From Hexactinellida sp. DTS-2022 (taxonomy: Eukaryota; Porifera; Hexactinellida): DNA of 64,000 nucleotides. The first letter of the stretch is position 1, and each line of letters begins with the position of its first letter. The position numbers and the translations under genes are program-made. The stretch spans positions 2,976,001 through 3,040,000 of the forward strand of contig JAPNXP010000013.1 of assembly GCA_028753945.1 (NCBI GenBank). Direction: 5' to 3'. Positions 22,265-62,136 of this stretch are shown here, piece after piece. The notes beneath the pieces are model-generated. The model was not told the DNA's origin, made no database searches, and saw only the letters and a list, made by a program, of their open reading frames with translations.

Positions 22265-23355
22265 TCTTAGTAGGTCAGACGCGATGTTTGAATACTTTCT
22301 AAAATATAAATAGTTATTCACAAAGTTTATGCTTAGGTTGTTTTAATATTCACCTTTTCCTTTTGAAAGGTGTAATAAGTTGGTTTGAATATTTTCTAAA
22401 ATAGATCTGATCGTGACCTACGTTATATAAGGACTATGCACCAACTTTGTGAAACTGGACCATGCATTTAATTAATTAAGGCTATTGATAATTAGGTTAT
22501 TTATCGTTATCAAATTAACTAGTAGTGATAGACCTCATAAATGTTCTATAACCATATAGGAACATGGTATCAAGGTATATATAGCACCCTTCAGAATTGA
22601 GTTATGGCATCATTTGATTACGTAATCGCAATTTTTTATGGGTAATATAGTGTTTTTATAGCACGCTTTTAGCATAGTTTGACGCGTTATAAATGTTCAA
22701 AATTGAAACATGAGGATATCCATAACTAGTTGAATGAAATATATCGAAATTATAAATGGAATGTTGACACATTCCTCGGTTGCCAGGGAAGTCTATATTT
22801 CCTAAAATGAGCCATAACTCAAAAACTATCTATTTTATGTAAACTAGGCTAGTACTGATCTATCCGCAATAGGTAACTTCCTTTGATAATACATTATACG
22901 TATATGCCTAACTACAATAATTTTTGAGAGAATAAGATAATTAGCACTTAATTCCATATGAGGTAATACACTCATTATCTCAAATATAATTGTAGTTAGG
23001 CATATATAATGTATTATCAATGAATAGGAAGTTACCTATTGCGGATAGATCAGTCGTAGTACTATTGGGCATCATGTTCCAATTTGAAAACATTTATAAC
23101 GCGTCTAACTATGCTAAAAGCGGGCTATAAAAGCACTATAATACCCACCAAAAATTGCGATTACGTAATCAAATGATGACATAACTCAATTCTGAGGGGT
23201 GCTATGTATACCTTGATACCATGTTCCTATATGGTTATAGAACATTTATGAGGTCTATCACTACTAGTTAATTTGATAACGATAAATAACCTATTTATCA
23301 ATAGCCTTAATTAATTAAATGCATGGTCCAGTTTCACAAAGTTGGTGCATAGGCC

Positions 23356-23501
23356 TGTTGTGTGGTATTTTGAGACGCTGTGGTATTTTGAGACGCCTAT
23401 ATGATACACTCTATACATCATGGATGTGCTATTACAAATTAGACTGTGGTATTTTGAGACGCTGTGGTATTCTGAGGCGCAACTATATAAGGTAAATTAT
23501 A
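23356..23501 (+). repeat. Left terminal inverted repeat of the Ginger-like element
   Basis: Contains the box GTGGTATTTTGAGACGC(T/C) twice at its tip (about 23362-23398) and twice again about 90 bp inside (about 23446-23481, the last copy varying to GTGGTATTCTGAGGCGC). Between them is unique sequence. Paired direct repeats at this spacing are candidate integrase-binding sites. The right repeat is 30824-30969. Confidence 0.88.
23484..23490 (+). promoter_or_regulatory. Candidate TATA box of the integrase-OTU gene
   Basis: TATATAA lies inside the left terminal repeat, 114 bp upstream of the first in-frame ATG favoured for the gene. The right repeat has TATACAA at the equivalent place, one of only two differences between the ends, so only the left copy keeps a good TATA box. 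Confidence 0.5.
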
Positions 23502-23603
23502 TTACTCTGCTTGTCTACAACTATCACAACACAATCAATCAATCAATCAAACAAACTAATCAAACCAAACCAAATAATCAATCATTTCTATTCTGATTTT
23601 CAA

Positions 23604-26600
23604 ATGAATTCAGAAGAGTATCAAGAAATTATTCAGTTTCTTCGCGAACAAAAATATCCTGAGACAGTACAAGACTCACGGCAAACAAGATGGAATTACA
23701 AAAGAAAACTGTCCTCCTATTTCATTGCAGAATCCGACACACTATTCAAGGTGAGATTTTTTTAAACCCCAAAAATGACTCGCTATACTAATAAATAATC
23801 CCATTATTTATATATTAATTAAAAATACAGTAGATCCTCTTTAATTAACAGCCACTGCATAACGGTTACTTGTCTATAACGGCCATTTTGCCCTGTCCTT
23901 TCCTGGTCCTTATTACTTAGCAGGTTCTACTATATTTGATTTAATAGTTTTAATTAATCTTCTCCTTAGAGAGTTAAACTGGGAGGTACAGAAACAGATT
24001 TGGAAGTTCCATTGAAGTCTCAGTTGGATGATATTTATCAAAGGTTCCATGACCAAGTTGGTCATCCAGGGATTCACGCCACTCTTCATTCAGTTCAGCA
24101 AAGAAACACATGGACAGGAATGCACATTGACGTTCGAGATTATGTAAGTTAATATGATAATGAAATTTATTTGAACAATTTGTATTTGATGTCTTTCGAA
24201 TTAAAATTGCTTAATTAATAAGGGTAACTTATCTACTCAAAATAGGAAAAAGTAGTTACTTTTCAAATTATAGCCAACTGGATCACCCTGGTCCTCATTT
24301 TGCAACTTCAACCAATCTAATCTTTGACTTCTGTACGAAAAATTTCCCTATTTCCTAACGATTATATAATTATATAATTATCCCTTAACCTACTATTAGT
24401 TCGATTTATTTTCAATTAAAATCAATTTGTAATGTTATGTAGATATATTCATTTGATTTATTTTACAATTACTGGGTAAATTGCATTGCAATTATCAATT
24501 CAGTACATACTCGAATCAGACGTACCAATTTCTATTCCCAACTAAATTCTGCTAGTATGTACTCTTAGAAAATTGTCAGCAGAACTTCGTTAGTGTTTTG
24601 ATTGTCTGAGTACGTGACAACCAAAATACTTTTATATTATCGTTGAGTATGTTTGAAGACTGTATACCCTTTACATCGTATTTACACAATTCAACAAGTC
24701 AGCATTTCGACCTGTGGATTATGCATACGGATTTAGACATGCCTTCCGTTAGTACGTACTTTGTCTTGTTTCCCAAGGCTGGTACGCCTTAATCGAGTTC
24801 TATTATATTTCTATTCTAATTGATGTACGTACATCCCAAAATAGCATTAGAATGCAGTGTTAGTGGAACATTTGAGTTGAATCATCCATGTGCTGTAATC
24901 GTAATTATTAAGTTCTAGATTGTCTAATTAGTAAAGCATTTTATTTTGACGACTAATAGCAACTAACATGATTTCGCAAGATCCCAAATTGTTTTTATAT
25001 TTATTTTTATAATGTTCAGTTAACTTTAATCAACCATTTACGAAATTTATATAATGGTGTAATTAGATATCGATGCTGTAACTAATACAAAATTATTAAA
25101 AAATGCCATATTATAATTACTTTATTGTATACTAAAGGTAAGGACTTGCCATACATGTCAGATGACAGCGGCCTTGCCACCACAACCGCAAAAGAAGCTC
25201 CAACCAATCCCACCTCCATCTAAAACGTGGAAACATATAGGGATGGACCTTATATGTGATTTCTCTGAGAGCAAAGATGGATATAAACACATCTTAGTCA
25301 CTGTTTGTTATCTGAGCAAAAACGTTGCAGTGCGCGCTCTCAAGTCGAAGACATCAGAAGAAGTAATCCAGAATCTTAAGGATATCTACCTCGATATGGG
25401 ATTACCCGATATTATTCAGCACGACCAAGGAAGGGAGTTTACAAGTAATGTGAGTTGCATAATCATTTTTCTACATTATAATCGAATATTATCAGTGACA
25501 TATTGCTAAATATGTATTTTTTATAATATTAGTACGTATTCGATAGTAATTTTTCTTGTATTATTCATAGATATTTCAGGAATTTCACCGGAAATTAGGA
25601 GTTGAAAATCGTAGCACTCGTGCATACCACCCGATGGCTAACGGTTTAGTCGAAGCACACAATAAGATTCTCAAAAGGTAGTGTTATTAGTTAACTAGTA
25701 AATGATAACAACATTTCGAATGCATGATTTAGGATAATATACCAACTATGAAAGTTCTTTTTTAGTAAACTGAACAAAATGGAGATCCAGACTGGGGATC
25801 ATTGGACAAATCTTCTAAAAGCTGCTGCAATAACAATGAATTCTACCTTTAAAAGGTCCCATGGTCAAACTCCATTCAAGGTTATGTGGGGAAGAGAGTC
25901 CAGGCATCAAGATCTTCTATCGACCATTAACAACCTGCAGTGCAACACTGAAGAAGATTTTGCAATAGACGATGCTATTATGAGCGAATTCATTCCTCCA
26001 CTCGATGATATTGAAGAAATATCAGACATCTTTTCTCCACCACTTGACATTCCCCAAGAAGAAGTTACTAGTATTGATGAATCTCGTACTTCTACACAGC
26101 AATCAGCAATGGATAGTATCAACTTTGAGCAAATAAAACAGAAGATGCAGTATGATAAGAAGGTCAACGAAGGACGGTTAGTTTAGCTATATTATAAATT
26201 CAACAATGTTTTCTTACTCACATTTTATTATCATTATGACATCTGTAGTGCCTCTCTGAAGATGGATGATAAGATCATATACACTAACATGCCAAAGATC
26301 AAACACTTACCCAAAACGAAGAAGCAATCAAAATATATTGGGCCTTACACGGTGTCGAAAGTAACAGATAGTCATGTTACTATTTCTCAGACAGAATTAG
26401 GAGCCAAAAAAGACAAGAAAATTCCAATCCATATCACACGTCCTTATTTTGTAAGAAACACTAAGAAGAAAGTAAACCTCGATTCGAGCATAGGTGTCGA
26501 CACATCACAGGTACTATTGATCAAATCATACATAATTAGAAATTAGTGTCAATTTAATTGAAAATATTCAATTTTAGACTTGCCTGAATCTCTATGGATT

Positions 26601-28365
26601 TACAGCAGTATCTATATTTACACATCTAACTACTTTCAAAGTAAGGATTCCATTCTCTTTACATTCCTGAATTATTGTTGAGAAGTCATTGTTATTTATA
26701 ATTTACTTCTCCAATTGATGTCAATTTCAGTTATCTCATAAACTTCCAGGCAATAATGATTACTTCATCATTTTTTTGAATTTCTAGGAAATTCTAAAAC
26801 AGAATATTCTCCAAGGAACCTTCGCGACTCCTTTACATGAGAAATTGTACAGAAGCTTAAACAAACAACACATCTATACTCCCAACACCTATTTATTTCA
26901 GTTTTTGAATGGTGAAAAAGAAGATAAAATTGTAAGTCTAACCGAGTATAAATTAGAAAATTTTAGATTAGTTAAACACAACTTATATCCATTGTATTTA
27001 TATATCTGTAGAAGAGAGACATAATTGAGACTGTAATGGAATGGACACCAGATATTTATCCTAGTTTTACAGATAATGAGCGTGCTAGACATACACACAA
27101 AATACTGTATTTCGTGGTAAGTATTCTACACAATATTATTGAGATACCTTATATGGATGCTCTAATTAATTGTGTAATTTTTTTATACTTAATGATTCCT
27201 ATATACCTTTATTAGGCGATGGAGTATCTCAATACAATGCTATGGGACACGTTCGACGAAAAAGATCAAACCGTTATTACAGATGCCTATCCGGATGACC
27301 CAAAAATTATTGTTATAGATGAGAATTGGCAGCGTAGTAAATGTGTTCTCTTGGGGATAACATTTGATTCAGTTAGCAAGCAACCATCGGATCTCGTTGG
27401 ACAGCCACTAAGCAAATACGAACCAGAGCTGACAGAGAAAATCAAAGGAGATGGTAATTGTCTCTTCAGATGTCTCTCCAAAATAATTACTGGGAGTGAA
27501 AACAGCCACCTACAGCTTCGTTCCATTATATGCCGATTTATAGCCAGTGAAGGGACAACAAAACTTGGATGGTATTTTAAATCAAAGCAAACAACACCGT
27601 GTCATTACCTCACACACGAAAACGCTATCTATCGTGAATCCATTTGGGGAAGTGATGTTGAAATTATGGCTGCTTCTGCTATTCTGAATGCCGATATCTA
27701 CGTTGCTAACAACGATTATAGAATGCCAGAGTCTGTAATTCGTCATGTGCGTTGGAGCTTGCTCAGATCTACTAACAGCCCGACTGCCAATCTTTACATC
27801 AAAAATTTCGTCCTACATTATGAACCTGTTGTATCAATGCTGAAATCTCCTATCCCGACGTATGGAACTACAACAGATGAAGTCCTAACAGTGTAATAAC
27901 AACTCACAACACTCTTTCGAAAGCGCTCAAAGACAAGGTACATCGAACTTTGTGGGGACCTCTGCTAGAGGTTATTCAGGCAACGCAATCCCTATCATGG
28001 TGAGCCCAGATAATGGAAACGTGACCTGCAACGGCACATCCCCAGTGGCGAGAGACGAGCTGTTATCTACAAGGTAAATAAAAGATGACAACAAATAGGT
28101 AAGTGATATACCTATGGAATCAAGTGAGTTTTAAAGTTATTTTTTTAATTGTAGTTAATATTGTTTGCGTTTATTTCTTTTAAGTTTTAGGTACATTGGA
28201 AACCGCCTCGCCTTCTTAGGGTTCTTCATAATACCTGGAACTAGATCAACAAAATTTCCCATGCCAATTCTTCCGTTTATCCAGTTTCATAAACATATAG
28301 CGAACTCTCGATTAAATTATAATAGGAAATTAGAACAATTTACAAACAAACTGGTTTTTAATTAA
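23604..28365 (+). CDS. Integrase-OTU protease fusion of a Ginger-like transposon (10-12 exons)
   Basis: Exons inferred by eye from GT-AG borders that keep frame: 23604-23750, 23970-24143, 25138-25449, 25571-25677, 25766-26176, 26249-26510, 26578-26640, 26788-26931, 27012-27116, then 27216-27830, 27892-28073 and 28191-28365 (898 codons). If the last-but-two intron is retained, exon ten runs to a stop at 27896 (801 residues). There is no internal stop. Domains: HHCC zinc finger (His76, His81, Cys111, Cys114); integrase core with Asp144 (HIGMDLICDF), Asp203 (IQHDQGREF) and Glu239 (ANGLVEAHNK), D-D-35-E spacing; GPY/F motif (YIGPYTV) near 415; OTU domain with GDGNCLFRC (Asp654, Cys657) and the likely catalytic His in NFVLHYEPV near 776. 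The integrase would cut and join transposon ends in the nucleus; the OTU part would be a deubiquitinase-like cysteine protease whose target is unknown. An ATG 93 bases upstream is also in frame. The second intron (994 bp) is the longest. Confidence 0.85.
23828..23931. mobile_element. Mariner-type MITE within intron 1 of the integrase gene
   Basis: The left end is CAGTAGATCCTCTTTAATTA and the right end, reversed, AGTAGAACCTGCTAAGTAAT. The same MITE occurs in the relic Ginger copy at about 46600-46690, so it entered before that copy was made and travels with the family. Confidence 0.7.
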
Positions 28366-28373
28366 AAAGAAAT

Positions 28374-29481
28374 AGAATAATTAATTTACTAATACTACAC
28401 TAGGTACAGCAGCTAGAAACGATATTAATTAATAATTGTTATATAGCGCTGTCGTATGCCATAAAAAAGAGTATCTAATTTCAGTACATATGTCTGGCTA
28501 TAATTTGGTTGTTGTTGTGGAATACTGAGATAATAACTAGCCAAAATTTCCATTTCTTTCAGTTAGCTAAGTTAAAACTTTCGTTGTGATAACTTATCAT
28601 AGTTTTTATTAAACCTTCTGTTTAATAAAAACCCTCAGTCTCATGTAATGGGTAAATTGTCCTGAGCCTAGGTCCCGCTAATGGTGTCAAGAGATAAGTT
28701 CGGTGTTTTCAGGTAAGCTCTTGACATCCCTCAACCGTTAGGCTCGCGGTTGGGGAAAGGTACAGAGTGTGTTCCAAGTACACTCACAGCGAAACTACTC
28801 TTTAGTAGCTAGCTGCAGCCCTGAGGGACCAACCTACTATTTATTCATTAATCAATTAATTAATTAACACTACTTCACAGCATAATCAATTATCTTTCCA
28901 TATAGCTTACTAACAGGCAGTTATCAAGACATGTTATCTTATTACTCTGCGAGAAGAATCGAGCCTGAACATTGTACAAGCCAGAACAAGTAGTTCCCGT
29001 CCTGAATTTGAAAATTTTGATGGATTAGTTTATATCCTTTACACATTAGTTATGTGGTATATTTATTATATCTTTCTGAAACTGTTACTCTGATATTTCC
29101 CATTAAATTTATTAATAAAAGATATCAATGCATAATAGTGGCTAATCTTAATAACAGGGTGATAAAAGTAAATTTTTAATATAAATTGCTTTTAGTTAGA
29201 CATAGGTATTTATTATAATCAAAAATATAATCAGGGAGTAATTAGGTATGTATTGTAGCCAAACAAAGTGGAGAAATAAGATAATAAACTAGTAGTTAGA
29301 TAAATTAGATATCGTGTTACTTAGGAATCATTTTAAGCTTCCACAATGTGTGCACTTGGCCCATATTACACAAGTTTCATAAGCTTCCACAATGTGTGCA
29401 CTTGGGCCAAATTACGTTTTTAATGTTTCATGACTCAGTTTTGTGCTACAATGATTTACAACTTACAACTATAAATACCAT
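28374..29481. other. Non-coding 3' half of the Ginger-like element, part 1
   Basis: No long frame. A perfect hairpin TTTTTATTAAAC / GTTTAATAAAAA lies at about 28603-28631, the structured segment at 28669-28836, and a direct repeat of AAGCTTCCACAATGTGTGCA at about 29335 and 29381. Confidence 0.5.
28669..28836 (+). other. Multi-stem RNA-like segment inside the Ginger-like element
   Basis: An outer stem, GGTCCC (28671-28676) with GGGACC (28825-28830), encloses at least four more: GTCAAGAG/CTCTTGAC (28686-28693, 28718-28725); CCCTCAACCG/CGGTTGGGG (28728-28737, 28747-28755); GAGTGT/ACACTC (28765-28770, 28780-28785); CTACT/AGTAG (28795-28808). It is G+C-richer than its flanks. It was compared from memory with tRNA, hammerhead, HDV-like and group I intron cores, without a match. 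Function unknown. Confidence 0.5.
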
Positions 29482-29511
29482 ATGAAATATGCAAAAGTAA
29501 TTACAGCTATA

Positions 29512-29697
29512 ATGGATTCTTCAGATAGATACTATATTGAATTTATTGAACAGATGGAAAAAGAATACGAAGAAAAAAAAATGAGCATGATGGAAGAGAC
29601 ATGCAAAATGATTGATGAACACAAAGCGTATCTAGATATGAAAAGGGCGGAATGGGAAATCGAAAAAAAGCATTTGAAAAAAAAATCAGAAAATTAA
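29512..29697 (+). CDS. Small coiled-coil protein of the Ginger-like element
   Basis: 61 residues from the ATG at 29512 (MDSSDRYYIEFIEQ), or 71 from 29482. The frame is highly charged, with a long predicted helix of heptad character (EKEYEEKKMSMMEETCKM, then DMKRAEWEIEKKHLKKK). A TATAAATA lies at 29470-29477; if that is the TATA box, the downstream ATG is the better start. AATAAA follows at about 29814. No family was recognised. A decayed duplicate at 30240-30650, with matching 3' untranslated words, argues that this was a real gene unit within the transposon. Confidence 0.5.
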   Translation: MDSSDRYYIEFIEQMEKEYEEKKMSMMEETCKMIDEHKAYLDMKRAEWEIEKKHLKKKSEN

Positions 29698-30239
29698 AAC
29701 AAACGATAATACGAATGGGGGATAAAGATTCAGATTAAGTGGAGAATTATTTAATTAGAAGAAGAGTATTAGACTTTAGTTTGTAATGTGTTTTTTGTTA
29801 ATTCATAAGATTAAATAAAGTTGTGCTTTACTAGTATTTTAATTAATGGTATTTTTTAATTAATTAATCTATAAGGGAAAATGCATATAGCTTGACTAGA
29901 TCCTGTCTTTTTTAAGGCAAGTGGATTAGAGAGTTAAATCTTTCAGTTATAAGAATTATAAATATGATATTTAGCCAACAAAATGCTTTAGAGAGAAAAA
30001 AATTAAGATTTGCAAGATATCGAATTTAGTAATCGTTTGGGAACCAGTTCCTCATTCTTGTAATCGGAAGTGCTAAATAACTAACGCATTCCATTTAATT
30101 CCGGAATTTGATTCAAGAATATAAGCTAATAGTTCGGATTACATCAAATTTAATGACAATGCACATGATATTCGTGATTACTTCGTGAGTCTTTCTATTT
30201 GATCAAAGATGTATAAACTTAGAAACTATAAATACGTTA

Positions 30240-30650
30240 CAGTTTAGGAATTATTGAATTAGGATGGTTTCAATGATTTATGTGGACGAGACGTTGACAG
30301 AAGAAATTCAGAATCAGCCGAAGAGCAGATCGAGCTGCCAAGATGCAGTCGAACAATTTTAACTAATTGATTCTTTTAATTAAGAGCAGAGGATCCCTGG
30401 AGAATGAGAGAAGAGTATGGCAGGATGAGAGAAATGCTTTGAAAAGAAAAATTAGGGAGAATTAGAAAACTGCGAAACATGGAGACTTAGCTGGAGGGTT
30501 CCGAGAAGTGTAGGGATATCATTGGAAACTAGAATAATTTGTATACTTTATTATTTAGATGTTTGTTGTGTCAATTAATGAAATAAAGTTGAGTTGCTAC
30601 TACGTATTAATTAATAAACACCTTCTTTTAATAAAGCAAGTGGATTACAA
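30240..30650 (+). pseudogene. Decayed duplicate of the small coiled-coil gene
   Basis: Encodes a broken frame with ENERRVWQDERNALKRKIREN, similar in character to the intact frame at 29512. The trailing sequence (AATAAAGTTGwGyTkyTAC, ATTAATTAAT and GGCAAGTGGATTA-like words) repeats that after 29697. It is therefore one half of an internal tandem duplication. Confidence 0.5.
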
Positions 30651-30823
30651 TTATCTGTAAAGTGGAAAATTATTTTCACTACCAGCGCTCGAAATACCAC
30701 AGTAGATTGGAAAAGCAAATCCAGAATTCACTAGTTATACTAAGTCTCAAATTCACAATTTAATTAATTAATTAATAATTAAGTATAACATTAAATGTTC
30801 AGTAAACTTATAGTTTGAGTGGA

Positions 30824-30969
30824 TATAATTTACCTTGTATAGTTGCGCCTCAGAATACCACAGCGTCTCAAAATACCACAGTCTAATTTGTAATAGCACA
30901 TCCATGGTGTATAGAGTGTATCATATAGGCGTCTCAAAATACCACAGCGTCTCAAAATACCACACAACA
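30824..30969 (-). repeat. Right terminal inverted repeat of the Ginger-like element
   Basis: The complement of 23356-23501 with two mismatches noticed (ACACC against ACATC, and TATACAAGG against TATATAAGG). Confidence 0.88.
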
Positions 30970-30999
30970 GGCCTTATATAACGTCGGTCACGATCTGAT

Positions 31000-31640
31000 A
31001 TATTTTTAAATGACTGTACTTTGGTGGCTTGAACTTTATGCAGTCATTATATGTGATTGGATAATCGGAAGGCGCCCGCATAGGTAGAACAGCCCCGACT
31101 ACTGCCGCGAAAACCGAACAAAACCTATTGGTGCATCATACATCCAGGATGTATGTACTTTAAATATGCATAAAATTTAGTCTAGTTGTTGGTAGTTACT
31201 ATATAAACTTCTGCAATCTTTTATTTTTTATATTAGTGGTAAAGGATAATGAATTGATAATTCAACCTATTTTTTATGACTTCTTGGCTAGGAAACTCTA
31301 CATCACAGTAAACATGCAGTCACTACGACGAAATACGAGGCAAGGACTTGAGCTGGAGAGATAGGATGGGACTGATCAGGGGTTAAGTGGGATCGGACAC
31401 CAATGTAATGCTGATACTTAAGACCTTTTATGCTCATAAATTTCTTTTTCCTAAGTTTTTGGTGGGCAAATTTCCTTTGATGTCATAATAGGTGCCAGTC
31501 CTAAAGGAATATTCTACAATAATATAGAGATATTAATGCCAATATCATTGGAAGCTTCTAAAAAGTGGGACTGCCAATGCGGCAAGGGCCCACCTACATA
31601 CGATGGCCTTGACAGCAATTGAGGCCCCAAACCTGTGGAG
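31000..31640. other. Spacer, nothing recognised
   Basis: No gene or complete repeat was seen. It ends with GAGGCCCCAAACCTGTGGAG, which continues in GAGGCCCC after the next small insertion. Confidence 0.4.
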
Positions 31641-61000: not shown

Positions 61001-62136
61001 AATTATTATACTACGGTCAATACCTTCCCCAGCAGAACTAGGATGCTGGAACAAGGAGATCGAAGTTCCATGAAATGAATCCTTAGAAGTTGTTGAAGAC
61101 GGATTGTGGTCAATGTTGTCAACTGCAGCAGATGTAAATACTTTTCCACGAAACTTTGGTGGACAGACCACCTTTTCCCTTTCAAAGCGCTCACATACTC
61201 CATTTCCCAGTTGGATGGAGAGAAGAACACTCTATCATAGGAAATACTAAGTCCAAGGTGATGCAACCGATCAACAAGCTCTCTCTTACGATGTGTGCAT
61301 GCAACATCAATCCAATATATGTTGGAAGAGGTGTTTCCTGGTTTATGTTGTGCCTAACTGATGTCACCATTCCTGTGTGTTTACGTTTGTGCATGACACT
61401 GTTATACCTTAGCAGCTGTGCAATAGCAAGTGACGCAGGTGTTAGAGAGCTGTGAGTCTGATCCTTGATACTAGGTCCCTACAATATCAATGATACTAAA
61501 GCAAGTAGTGTGCTTGGGACTGATTTTTATTGACATTTATCATTAAATGTTCCATCAAATGGTTTACTTGCTCAAACAAATGTTTGCGAATAATTGCTGC
61601 TGCTCTCGCAAGATGAATCCCATCACTGTCACTGTCCTGCTGACAGACTTTAGCCAATGCTTCTCCTATGACGACCTATGTTTTGGGCTCTCATGCCTGG
61701 AAAGTGAGCTAAGATACGTTGCTTTAGTCGTGTAGTGTGAGTTCTCTGATTCATTTGAACACCAAACTGTTCCATTCTTGCATTATAAAGATTCGCTAGA
61801 TCATATAGTTTGAAGACTGGTGTAACATTTTCCTGAATTCGTGTTTCTTCAATGTACATTAACAAGTTCTGCAAAGGCTAACCCGGAAAACACTTGATCT
61901 TGATCACTTTCAGTTCCCTTACATTTTTCAGCTGCCCTTGCTTTGTTGTACAATGCAGCCAAACATTTGGCATGATATTTGCATTCAAGAGCAATCATAT
62001 CTCCATTACTGAGTTTGCCAAGTAGTCTTGTGCCTTCAATGATGGCTGCACTTTTACGCACACGTCTGTCCAGTTCTAGAGTGGATGCTTCATGGAGTTC
62101 AGATGAACCACCCGGATGCCCACAGAAGAAACACAA
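58030..62136 (-). pseudogene. Large transposon protein with PIN/XPG-like region and CXC cluster (possibly Academ)
   Basis: Pieces run on the minus strand from 62136 to 58030: a zinc-binding-like start CFFCGHPGGSSELHEAS; EETPLPTYIGLM-like and GLSISYDRV blocks (61200-61400); PPKFRGKVFTSAAVDNIDHN (61160); HFGGLHIEMAVLKTLGDWLR (60500); DHAHEQNNAFIKGDGGAIGL (about 59910); a nuclease-like segment EADTRLLLHATHA, RTVDTDVVVFAIMV, FHALTGCDTVSF (58560-58870); and a C-terminal cysteine cluster CGCKKGCRGQCKCKR. Together these would exceed 1200 residues. The acidic EADTR...DTDV spacing resembles FEN1/XPG-type nucleases, which points to an Academ-type transposon; that assignment is tentative. At least four frameshifts (near 58560, 59120, 60450, 61650) and a stop near 60590 break it. 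Confidence 0.6.

Follow-up and report, generated by a model that had tools for sequence, protein, structure and literature searches.

A young, probably autonomous Ginger1-like DNA transposon in a glass sponge and the nearly invariant segment behind its transposase gene

What kind of element occupies positions 23356-30969 of a 64,000-nucleotide stretch of DNA from the glass sponge Hexactinellida sp. DTS-2022, is it still whole, and what does its gene carry besides an integrase? A first-pass annotation, made from the letters of this stretch (the window) alone, had described an intact Ginger-like transposon encoding an integrase fused to an OTU protease. Here the window is analyzed together with the genome that it comes from (112.4 Mb in 18 contigs, the window being C5:2976001-3040000); because the genome searches score the best candidates only, all copy numbers given below are lower bounds. 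We consider it highly probable that this 7,614-bp DNA transposon is a young, structurally intact and probably autonomous Ginger1-like element; its Ginger-type character is supported by the integrase domains, the terminal inverted repeats (TIRs), the 4-bp target-site duplications (TSDs) and the C-terminal OTU domain. The unexpected part is a nearly invariant stretch past the stop codon, which in sister elements is followed by a hammerhead motif.

Ends, target sites and copies of the element

An inverted-repeat search and an alignment of copies place the 5' TIR, which begins TGTTG, at 23356..23502 on the plus strand and the 3' TIR at 30823..30969 on the minus strand. The TIRs are 147 nt long with two mismatches, and comparison of the ends identifies GGCC at both edges of the element (23352..23355 and 30970..30973) as its 4-bp duplication. 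With the flanking bases counted in, the inverted arms (23351-23502 and 30823-30974) extend to 152 nt at 99% complementarity. The first-pass annotation had reported both the two-mismatch repeats and the GGCC duplication, and both stand at the TIR length given here. One mismatch (23418) is private to the window copy; at the other (23488), the 5' and 3' ends differ family-wide, with T in 21 of 21 5' ends and C in 13 of 14 3' ends. Because of this T, the TATA-box-like sequence TATATAAG (23484..23491, plus strand), a putative promoter, is intact in the 5' TIR only. Each TIR also holds four copies of an 18-bp repeat arranged as two tandem pairs, the first of which (TGTGGTATTTTGAGACGC, 23361..23396, plus strand) we regard as putative transposase binding sites; the second pair lies at 23445..23480 on the same strand, its last copy having two mismatches. 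When the genome was searched with the TIR, the 40 matches scored among 445 candidates were all 96-100% identical, which excludes a chance origin of the element ends.

The four bases that flank the 5' end read GNNC in all 21 cases available, the window and 20 fetched copies, and are preceded by A in 20 of them; CCGG, CCGT or ACGG occurs as the duplication at none of these 21 ends. GGCC is thus one case of GNNC and not a fixed target, as the earlier description would have had it. TSD pairs can be compared in the window and in the 13 of 20 fetched copies with both ends located, and they are identical in 12 of these 14, the exceptions being L037, where one base differs, and L044, where the tip of the 3' TIR is unmatched. 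The left flank of a second family, F2, is GAAC.

The element is inserted in one arm of another inverted-repeat transposon of about 1 kb (22398-23355 plus 30974-31006), which has many relatives in the genome. The arms of this interrupted transposon (22430-22697 and 23089-23356) are 96% complementary, and the broken one resumes at 30974-31006. Its intact arm represents the empty site (22398-22495, minus strand), in which the four bases stand only once and read GTCC instead of GGCC. When the two flanks were joined with one GGCC and compared with the genome (228 candidates), 38 of the 40 scored matches spanned the insertion point, and the other two were the two element junctions themselves. Inside the interrupted transposon, 22901-23006 is a palindromic repeat whose 50-nt arms are 80% complementary.

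An open gene with all splice dinucleotides is found in seven of the 20 fetched copies (eight of 21 with the window), which disposes of the possibility that all copies carry stops. These open copies are 98.9-99.8% identical in coding sequence, and two have one extra codon. In the window copy, 19 substitutions are private among 7,581 alignment columns, counted where at least eight of 19 other copies contribute and with L031 left out as too diverged. Together, the few private substitutions and the open, near-identical copies indicate that the family moved recently, as had been proposed, and it is plausible that it is still mobile today. More distant relatives are abundant: the OTU exon has at least 151 genomic matches (best 150 of 881 candidates scored), many of them without a stop, and the exon carrying the DDE residues at least 150 (best 150 of 871). 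The OTU-exon matches include near-identical groups at about 100, 65, 54 and 47% identity, which we call families F1 (that of the window element), F2, F3 and F4, with others lying between them.

An integrase-OTU transposase

The transposase gene consists of ten exons separated by nine GT-AG introns, all on the plus strand, and encodes 801 residues in a single frame that remains open through the H2C2, DD35E, GPY/F and OTU regions, as the first-pass annotation had claimed for a longer product. Its 898-residue model is rejected in favor of the 801-residue one, the open frame past the stop having no clear coding signal. Exon 1 (23604..23750) contains the start codon, exon 2 (23970..24143) both histidines of the H2C2 zinc finger, and exon 3 (25138..25449) the CxxC and the first two catalytic aspartates, exons 2 and 3 being supported by Pfam matches as well as by the gene model. 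The gene model places the catalytic glutamate in exon 4 (25571..25677), the end of the core and a linker in exon 5 (25766..26176) and the GPY/F motif in exon 6 (26249..26510). Exons 7 (26578..26640), 8 (26788..26931) and 9 (27012..27116) also draw on the comparison with F2, and exon 10 (27216..27896), with the OTU domain and the stop codon, on Pfam, alignment and structure prediction. All nine intron places are identical in F2 (L051), which is about 65% identical to F1 in the OTU exon, and the intron lengths differ. A promoter scan of bacterial type was uninformative for animal DNA.

The zinc finger reads H-x4-H-x29-C-x2-C (counted by eye), the catalytic triad is D144, D203 and E239 with 35 residues between the last two, and by eye, with no profile involved, a GPY at residues 415-417 lies within YIGPYTV, which starts at residue 413. 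KYP near residue 18 and aromatic residues ahead of the finger would be compatible with a YPYY motif. The profile search that the first-pass annotation had suggested places all three expected families over their Pfam cut-offs, Integrase_H2C2 (PF17921) at 2.8e-16, rve (PF00665) at 4.6e-10 and OTU (PF02338) at 2.7e-9, and no other Pfam family passes its cut-off in the three pieces of the protein that were scanned. Between F1 and F2 the ratio of nonsynonymous to synonymous substitution (dN/dS) is 0.065 in exon 3 and 0.28 in the OTU exon, which indicates purifying selection on both.

The OTU fold predicted earlier is well supported. The motif GDGNC includes C657, and the histidine is H776 (protein numbering); G80, N81, C82, G93 and W144 never vary in an alignment of 40 sequences, in which D79 and H201 are kept in at least 90% (exon numbering). 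A profile comparison with the PDB matched OTUD5 (2.6e-11), OTUD1 and OTUD3. The AlphaFold model of this part has a pLDDT of 88.2 and a pTM of 0.85, with the catalytic Cys, His and Asp all in place in the predicted fold, and the best 50 of 264 PDB matches found by Foldseek are all OTU proteases (top E 6.3e-9), so that the structure prediction, which the first-pass annotation had named as a possible refutation, comes out in favor of the OTU fold. The domain might still be an inherited passenger with no protease role in transposition, as would fit its weaker constraint relative to the DDE exon and a relative from the sponge Oopsacas minuta that has the same integrase and no Pfam OTU match. We consider this unlikely, given the many stop-free OTU exons in the genome, the invariant catalytic Cys and nearly invariant Asp and His among 40 relatives, and a dN/dS well under 1.

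Ginger1 was defined by Bao, Kapitonov and Jurka (2010; PMC2836005), and according to the excerpts of that paper on which we draw throughout, all of its families but one have a C-terminal OTU or Ulp1 domain, the OTU type comprising Ginger1-1, -2, -3 and -11_HM of Hydra, Ginger1-1_AC of Aplysia and Ginger1-1 and -2-AP of an aphid. The integrase-OTU fusion was thus published in 2010 and is not the novelty that it first appeared to be; our study confirms this published type in another genome. The window element shares with these families the Gypsy-like integrase with H2C2, DDE and GPY/F, the C-terminal OTU domain, TGTNR ends, long TIRs and a 4-bp duplication, and its 147-bp TIRs and TGTTG tip lie within the range described for Ginger1 (about 40-270 bp, TGTNR). 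It differs in that its 7.6 kb include nine introns, compared with zero to four there, and in the conserved stretch past the stop codon with the hammerhead motifs of its sister families, neither of which is mentioned in those excerpts (PMC2836005). Its target is also different, GNNC here and CCGG or CCGT in Ginger1, and for this reason we file it as a Ginger1-like variant and not as a canonical Ginger1. This change from CCGG to GNNC sets up a natural comparison through which the target-reading part of a Gypsy-like integrase could be located.

Other comparisons are more distant. Ginger2/Tdd elements likewise combine a DDE integrase with TIRs, TGTNR ends and 4-bp duplications (5-bp in TDD-4/5), but they lack GPY/F and YPYY and use the AT-rich target RTATAY (PMC2836005, excerpts). 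In protein comparisons the transposase has its two best relatives in the glass sponge Oopsacas minuta; one of them, LOD99_1838 (P0001), is 38% identical over 66% of the query and has the same H2C2 and rve layout, whereas its C-terminal part, with an NTCSIDN motif, differs and has no Pfam OTU match. Related OTU domains occur in Helitron-type proteins, two of which (P0064 and P0066) also have the upstream WQ..C region, but there they are fused to helicase-like sequence and not to an integrase. The Helitron-type label reflects the name PIF1 helicase given by the source for P0052, which was left unaligned, and a helicase-like start recognized by reading in P0064 and P0066.

Several observations weigh against an intact Ginger1-like element. 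The splice model is a prediction from conservation between copies and families, and the reference copy of F2, whose exon 9 differs by a net 2 bp in length, has no continuous reading frame. Thirteen of the 20 fetched copies are broken or incomplete, the target departs from that of Ginger1, and the faster evolution of the OTU exon relative to the DDE exon means weaker constraint there. The Ginger1-like assignment itself draws on domains, TIRs and TSD length. It could further be asked whether the locus is a domesticated host gene, since Ginger1-derived host genes exist (PMC2836005, PMC12863088, both cited from excerpts), or a fragment of an LTR retroelement or Maverick, the integrase core resembling Gypsy integrases. 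The TIRs, the TSDs, the tens of near-identical dispersed copies and the empty target sites make either alternative scarcely credible, and in the three pieces of the protein scanned only H2C2, rve and OTU pass the Pfam cut-offs.

For an intact Ginger1-like transposon, the organization described above suggests a sequence of events. Transcription would start at the TATA box that the 5' TIR contains; its product, the transposase, would bind the 18-bp TIR repeats, excise the element and insert it, with a stagger of 4 bp, at A-GNNC-T. Ubiquitin might be stripped by the OTU domain from the transposase itself, or from nearby chromatin or repair proteins. The first-pass annotation had likewise suggested that this domain may protect the integrase or modify chromatin; Bao et al. 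suggested, as one possibility, the activation of DNA-repair factors (PMC2836005, excerpts). The young, open copies make it possible to test what a ubiquitin protease does in transposition.

The segment past the stop codon and the hammerhead motifs of sister families

The hyperconserved segment past the stop codon, whose 137-nt core was delimited by family alignments at 27915..28051 on the plus strand, is presumed from this position to be part of the 3' untranslated region (UTR). The part common to F1 and F2 covers about 27895-28070 of the window and is 95.5% identical over 176 nt. The 137-nt core remains about 93% identical between distant families, with 9 differences between F1 and F3, 10 between F1 and F4 and 9 between F3 and F4. 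Over the OTU exon immediately upstream, protein identity to F1 is 66% in F2, 54% in F3 and 44% in F4, and third codon positions are identical at 60%, 44% and 31%, which indicates that they are saturated or nearly so between F1 and F3 and between F1 and F4. In all four families the edges of the segment are sharp, and the stop codon is close upstream. It occurs in at least 150 genomic places (best 150 of 247 candidates scored), and twenty further places, picked to include diverged ones, align at 85-96%, with 18 covering nearly the full core and two (L067 and L068) partial. An exact search with a 20-nt core found no match in the collections searched, namely viral and prokaryotic contigs.

In L061, L062, L066, L068 and L071-L073 the segment seems, by eye, to stand behind a different coding end. 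This other coding end is FYKYD-like, again by eye, and our guess is that it is the same domain as the NTCSIDN part of P0001 from Oopsacas. A long array of CGGTACAACAAGACTCT-like units lies downstream of the segment in L053, a copy of F4.

What the segment does is less readily established than its conservation. A structured RNA was considered and rejected: the z-score of the segment alone is -1.03, and a double change was seen in only two of 29 predicted pairs. The alignment without L067 and L068 gives no support from covariation, and the one Rfam match around the segment, at 11.9 bits, is far under its cut-off; no Rfam family reaches its gathering score over the whole window.

A coding exon, reached by alternative splicing or readthrough, is suggested by a 45-codon frame that is free of stops in 138 of the 150 scored copies; six short predicted proteins in public records contain this frame. 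Pooled changes also lean towards the synonymous (89 seen versus 63.5 expected) and towards third positions (91 of 224), both counts including L067 and L068, but this excess counts for less with us, since the same change recurs in related copies. Counted as independent changes, with L065, L067 and L068 left out, coding is not clear: 36 synonymous, 67 nonsynonymous and three stop changes compare with 28.9, 73.7 and 4.1 expected, which is near neutral. Silent sites are conserved as well, and by reading the window copy has no in-frame ATG near the start of the segment, so that we regard a coding role as improbable. A more serious competitor is repeated gene conversion or recombination, which would produce near-identity with no constraint at all and would account both for the star-like pairwise differences (9, 10 and 9 of 137) and for the lack of covariation and of a clear coding signal. 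The sharp edges of the segment and its place close past the stop in F1-F4 speak against it, and the modules behind the segment, of F1/F2 type or hammerhead type, seem by eye to be bound to their families, as vertical descent predicts; we hold gene conversion to be less likely than not. If, instead, the segment is conserved because it functions, our best guess is that it acts on RNA, in stability, export or translation.

A hammerhead motif follows the segment in F3 and in several other families, though not in F1, usually 190-200 nt from the segment start. Its sequence, AAGTGTA-TTGCG...CGCAA-CTGACGA-GTCC-AAGCCG-GGAC-GAAACAC, provides the conserved core CUGANGA and GAAA, stems I-III and an NUH cleavage triplet; stems I and II are closed, and stem III is open and short (four pairs). 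A strict structural scan of the window and of the fetched loci finds it at eight loci, L052 (984-1042), L055, L058, L059, L060, L061, L062 and L064, and finds none in the window or in F1 copies; within the window a candidate at 61836-61896 was rejected, the model giving only 15.4 bits (E 0.095). The Rfam model Hammerhead_3 (RF00008) matches seven of 13 loci at 25.2-29.5 bits (E 0.0037-0.061) and gives no match at E 1 in the other six. Because its gathering score of 48.5 is not reached, we use the term hammerhead motif. Of four loci folded, L052, L062 and L064 take the hammerhead layout at minimum energy and L061 comes close to it, at unremarkable energies (z -0.95 to -1.49). Canonical type III hammerheads occur elsewhere in the genome, at least 64 of 68 scored matches (12,319 candidates) exceeding the Rfam cut-off, for example at C1:4755915-4755968.

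A genome-wide search with the pattern AACTGANGANTCCNNNNNNGGANGAAACA gives 85 matches, and one with the reversed pattern gives none. The free stem II pair of this pattern is a standard pair in 83 of the 85 matches, and both of its sides are changed in five (A-T in four, T-A in one); among the Ginger features listed, none adjoins the four A-T cases. Position 7 of known hammerheads takes any base, and all four bases occur there among the 85 matches. The second loop contains GCC in 73, which could pair with a GGC of the first loop. Many of these matches lie near Ginger features: 37 have a scored segment on the same strand no more than 0.7 kb upstream, against about 0.17 expected, and a scored DDE or OTU exon lies on the same strand upstream of 31 and downstream of one. 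In all, 49 of the 85 are downstream of listed Ginger features, and the 36 without a listed partner may belong to unlisted families or reflect another use.

Known animal hammerheads are mostly of type I and reside in Penelope-like elements and retrozymes, type III being found mostly in plants and infectious RNAs (PMC7761336 and PMC7229834, both from excerpts). The sister-family motif resembles those of retrozymes and Penelope-like elements in its core (CUGANGA...GAAA) and its three stems; it differs in having its opening at stem III and in being carried by a DNA transposon and not by a retroelement. Among the open-licence papers that our searches listed, we found no report of hammerheads joined with Ginger elements.

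Behind the segment in the sister families, such a hammerhead could cut off the poly(A) tail, shorten the message and limit the amount of transposase. We tentatively propose, as a possibility less probable than not on the sequence comparisons available, that the roughly 137-nt segment and the self-cleaving hammerhead of sister families form an RNA control module that sets the amount of transposase. If this is true, hammerheads have a further kind of carrier, and transposons can regulate themselves in a new way, by a built-in ribozyme; if both parts work, the message of a DNA transposon can contain a ribozyme that controls the transposon itself.

Other features of the element

On the minus strand, 29997-30101 weakly resembles U6atac RNA (E 0.031); this match is taken as chance because one good genomic U6atac match, of 60 bits, lies elsewhere; 29997-30101 is not among the 14 U6atac matches listed (best 46 of 4,217 candidates scored). 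A possible second small gene, recognized by eye after TATAAATA, is a 61-residue frame of charged, coiled-coil-like sequence at 29512..29697 on the plus strand, open in the window and in ten of 15 fully covered copies. The region around it, 29440-29930, and a further region at 30220-30650 look by eye like tandem copies, one of them decayed. Finally, the stretch 28640-28845 is richer in G+C and has several strong hairpins within a closing stem (z -1.69).

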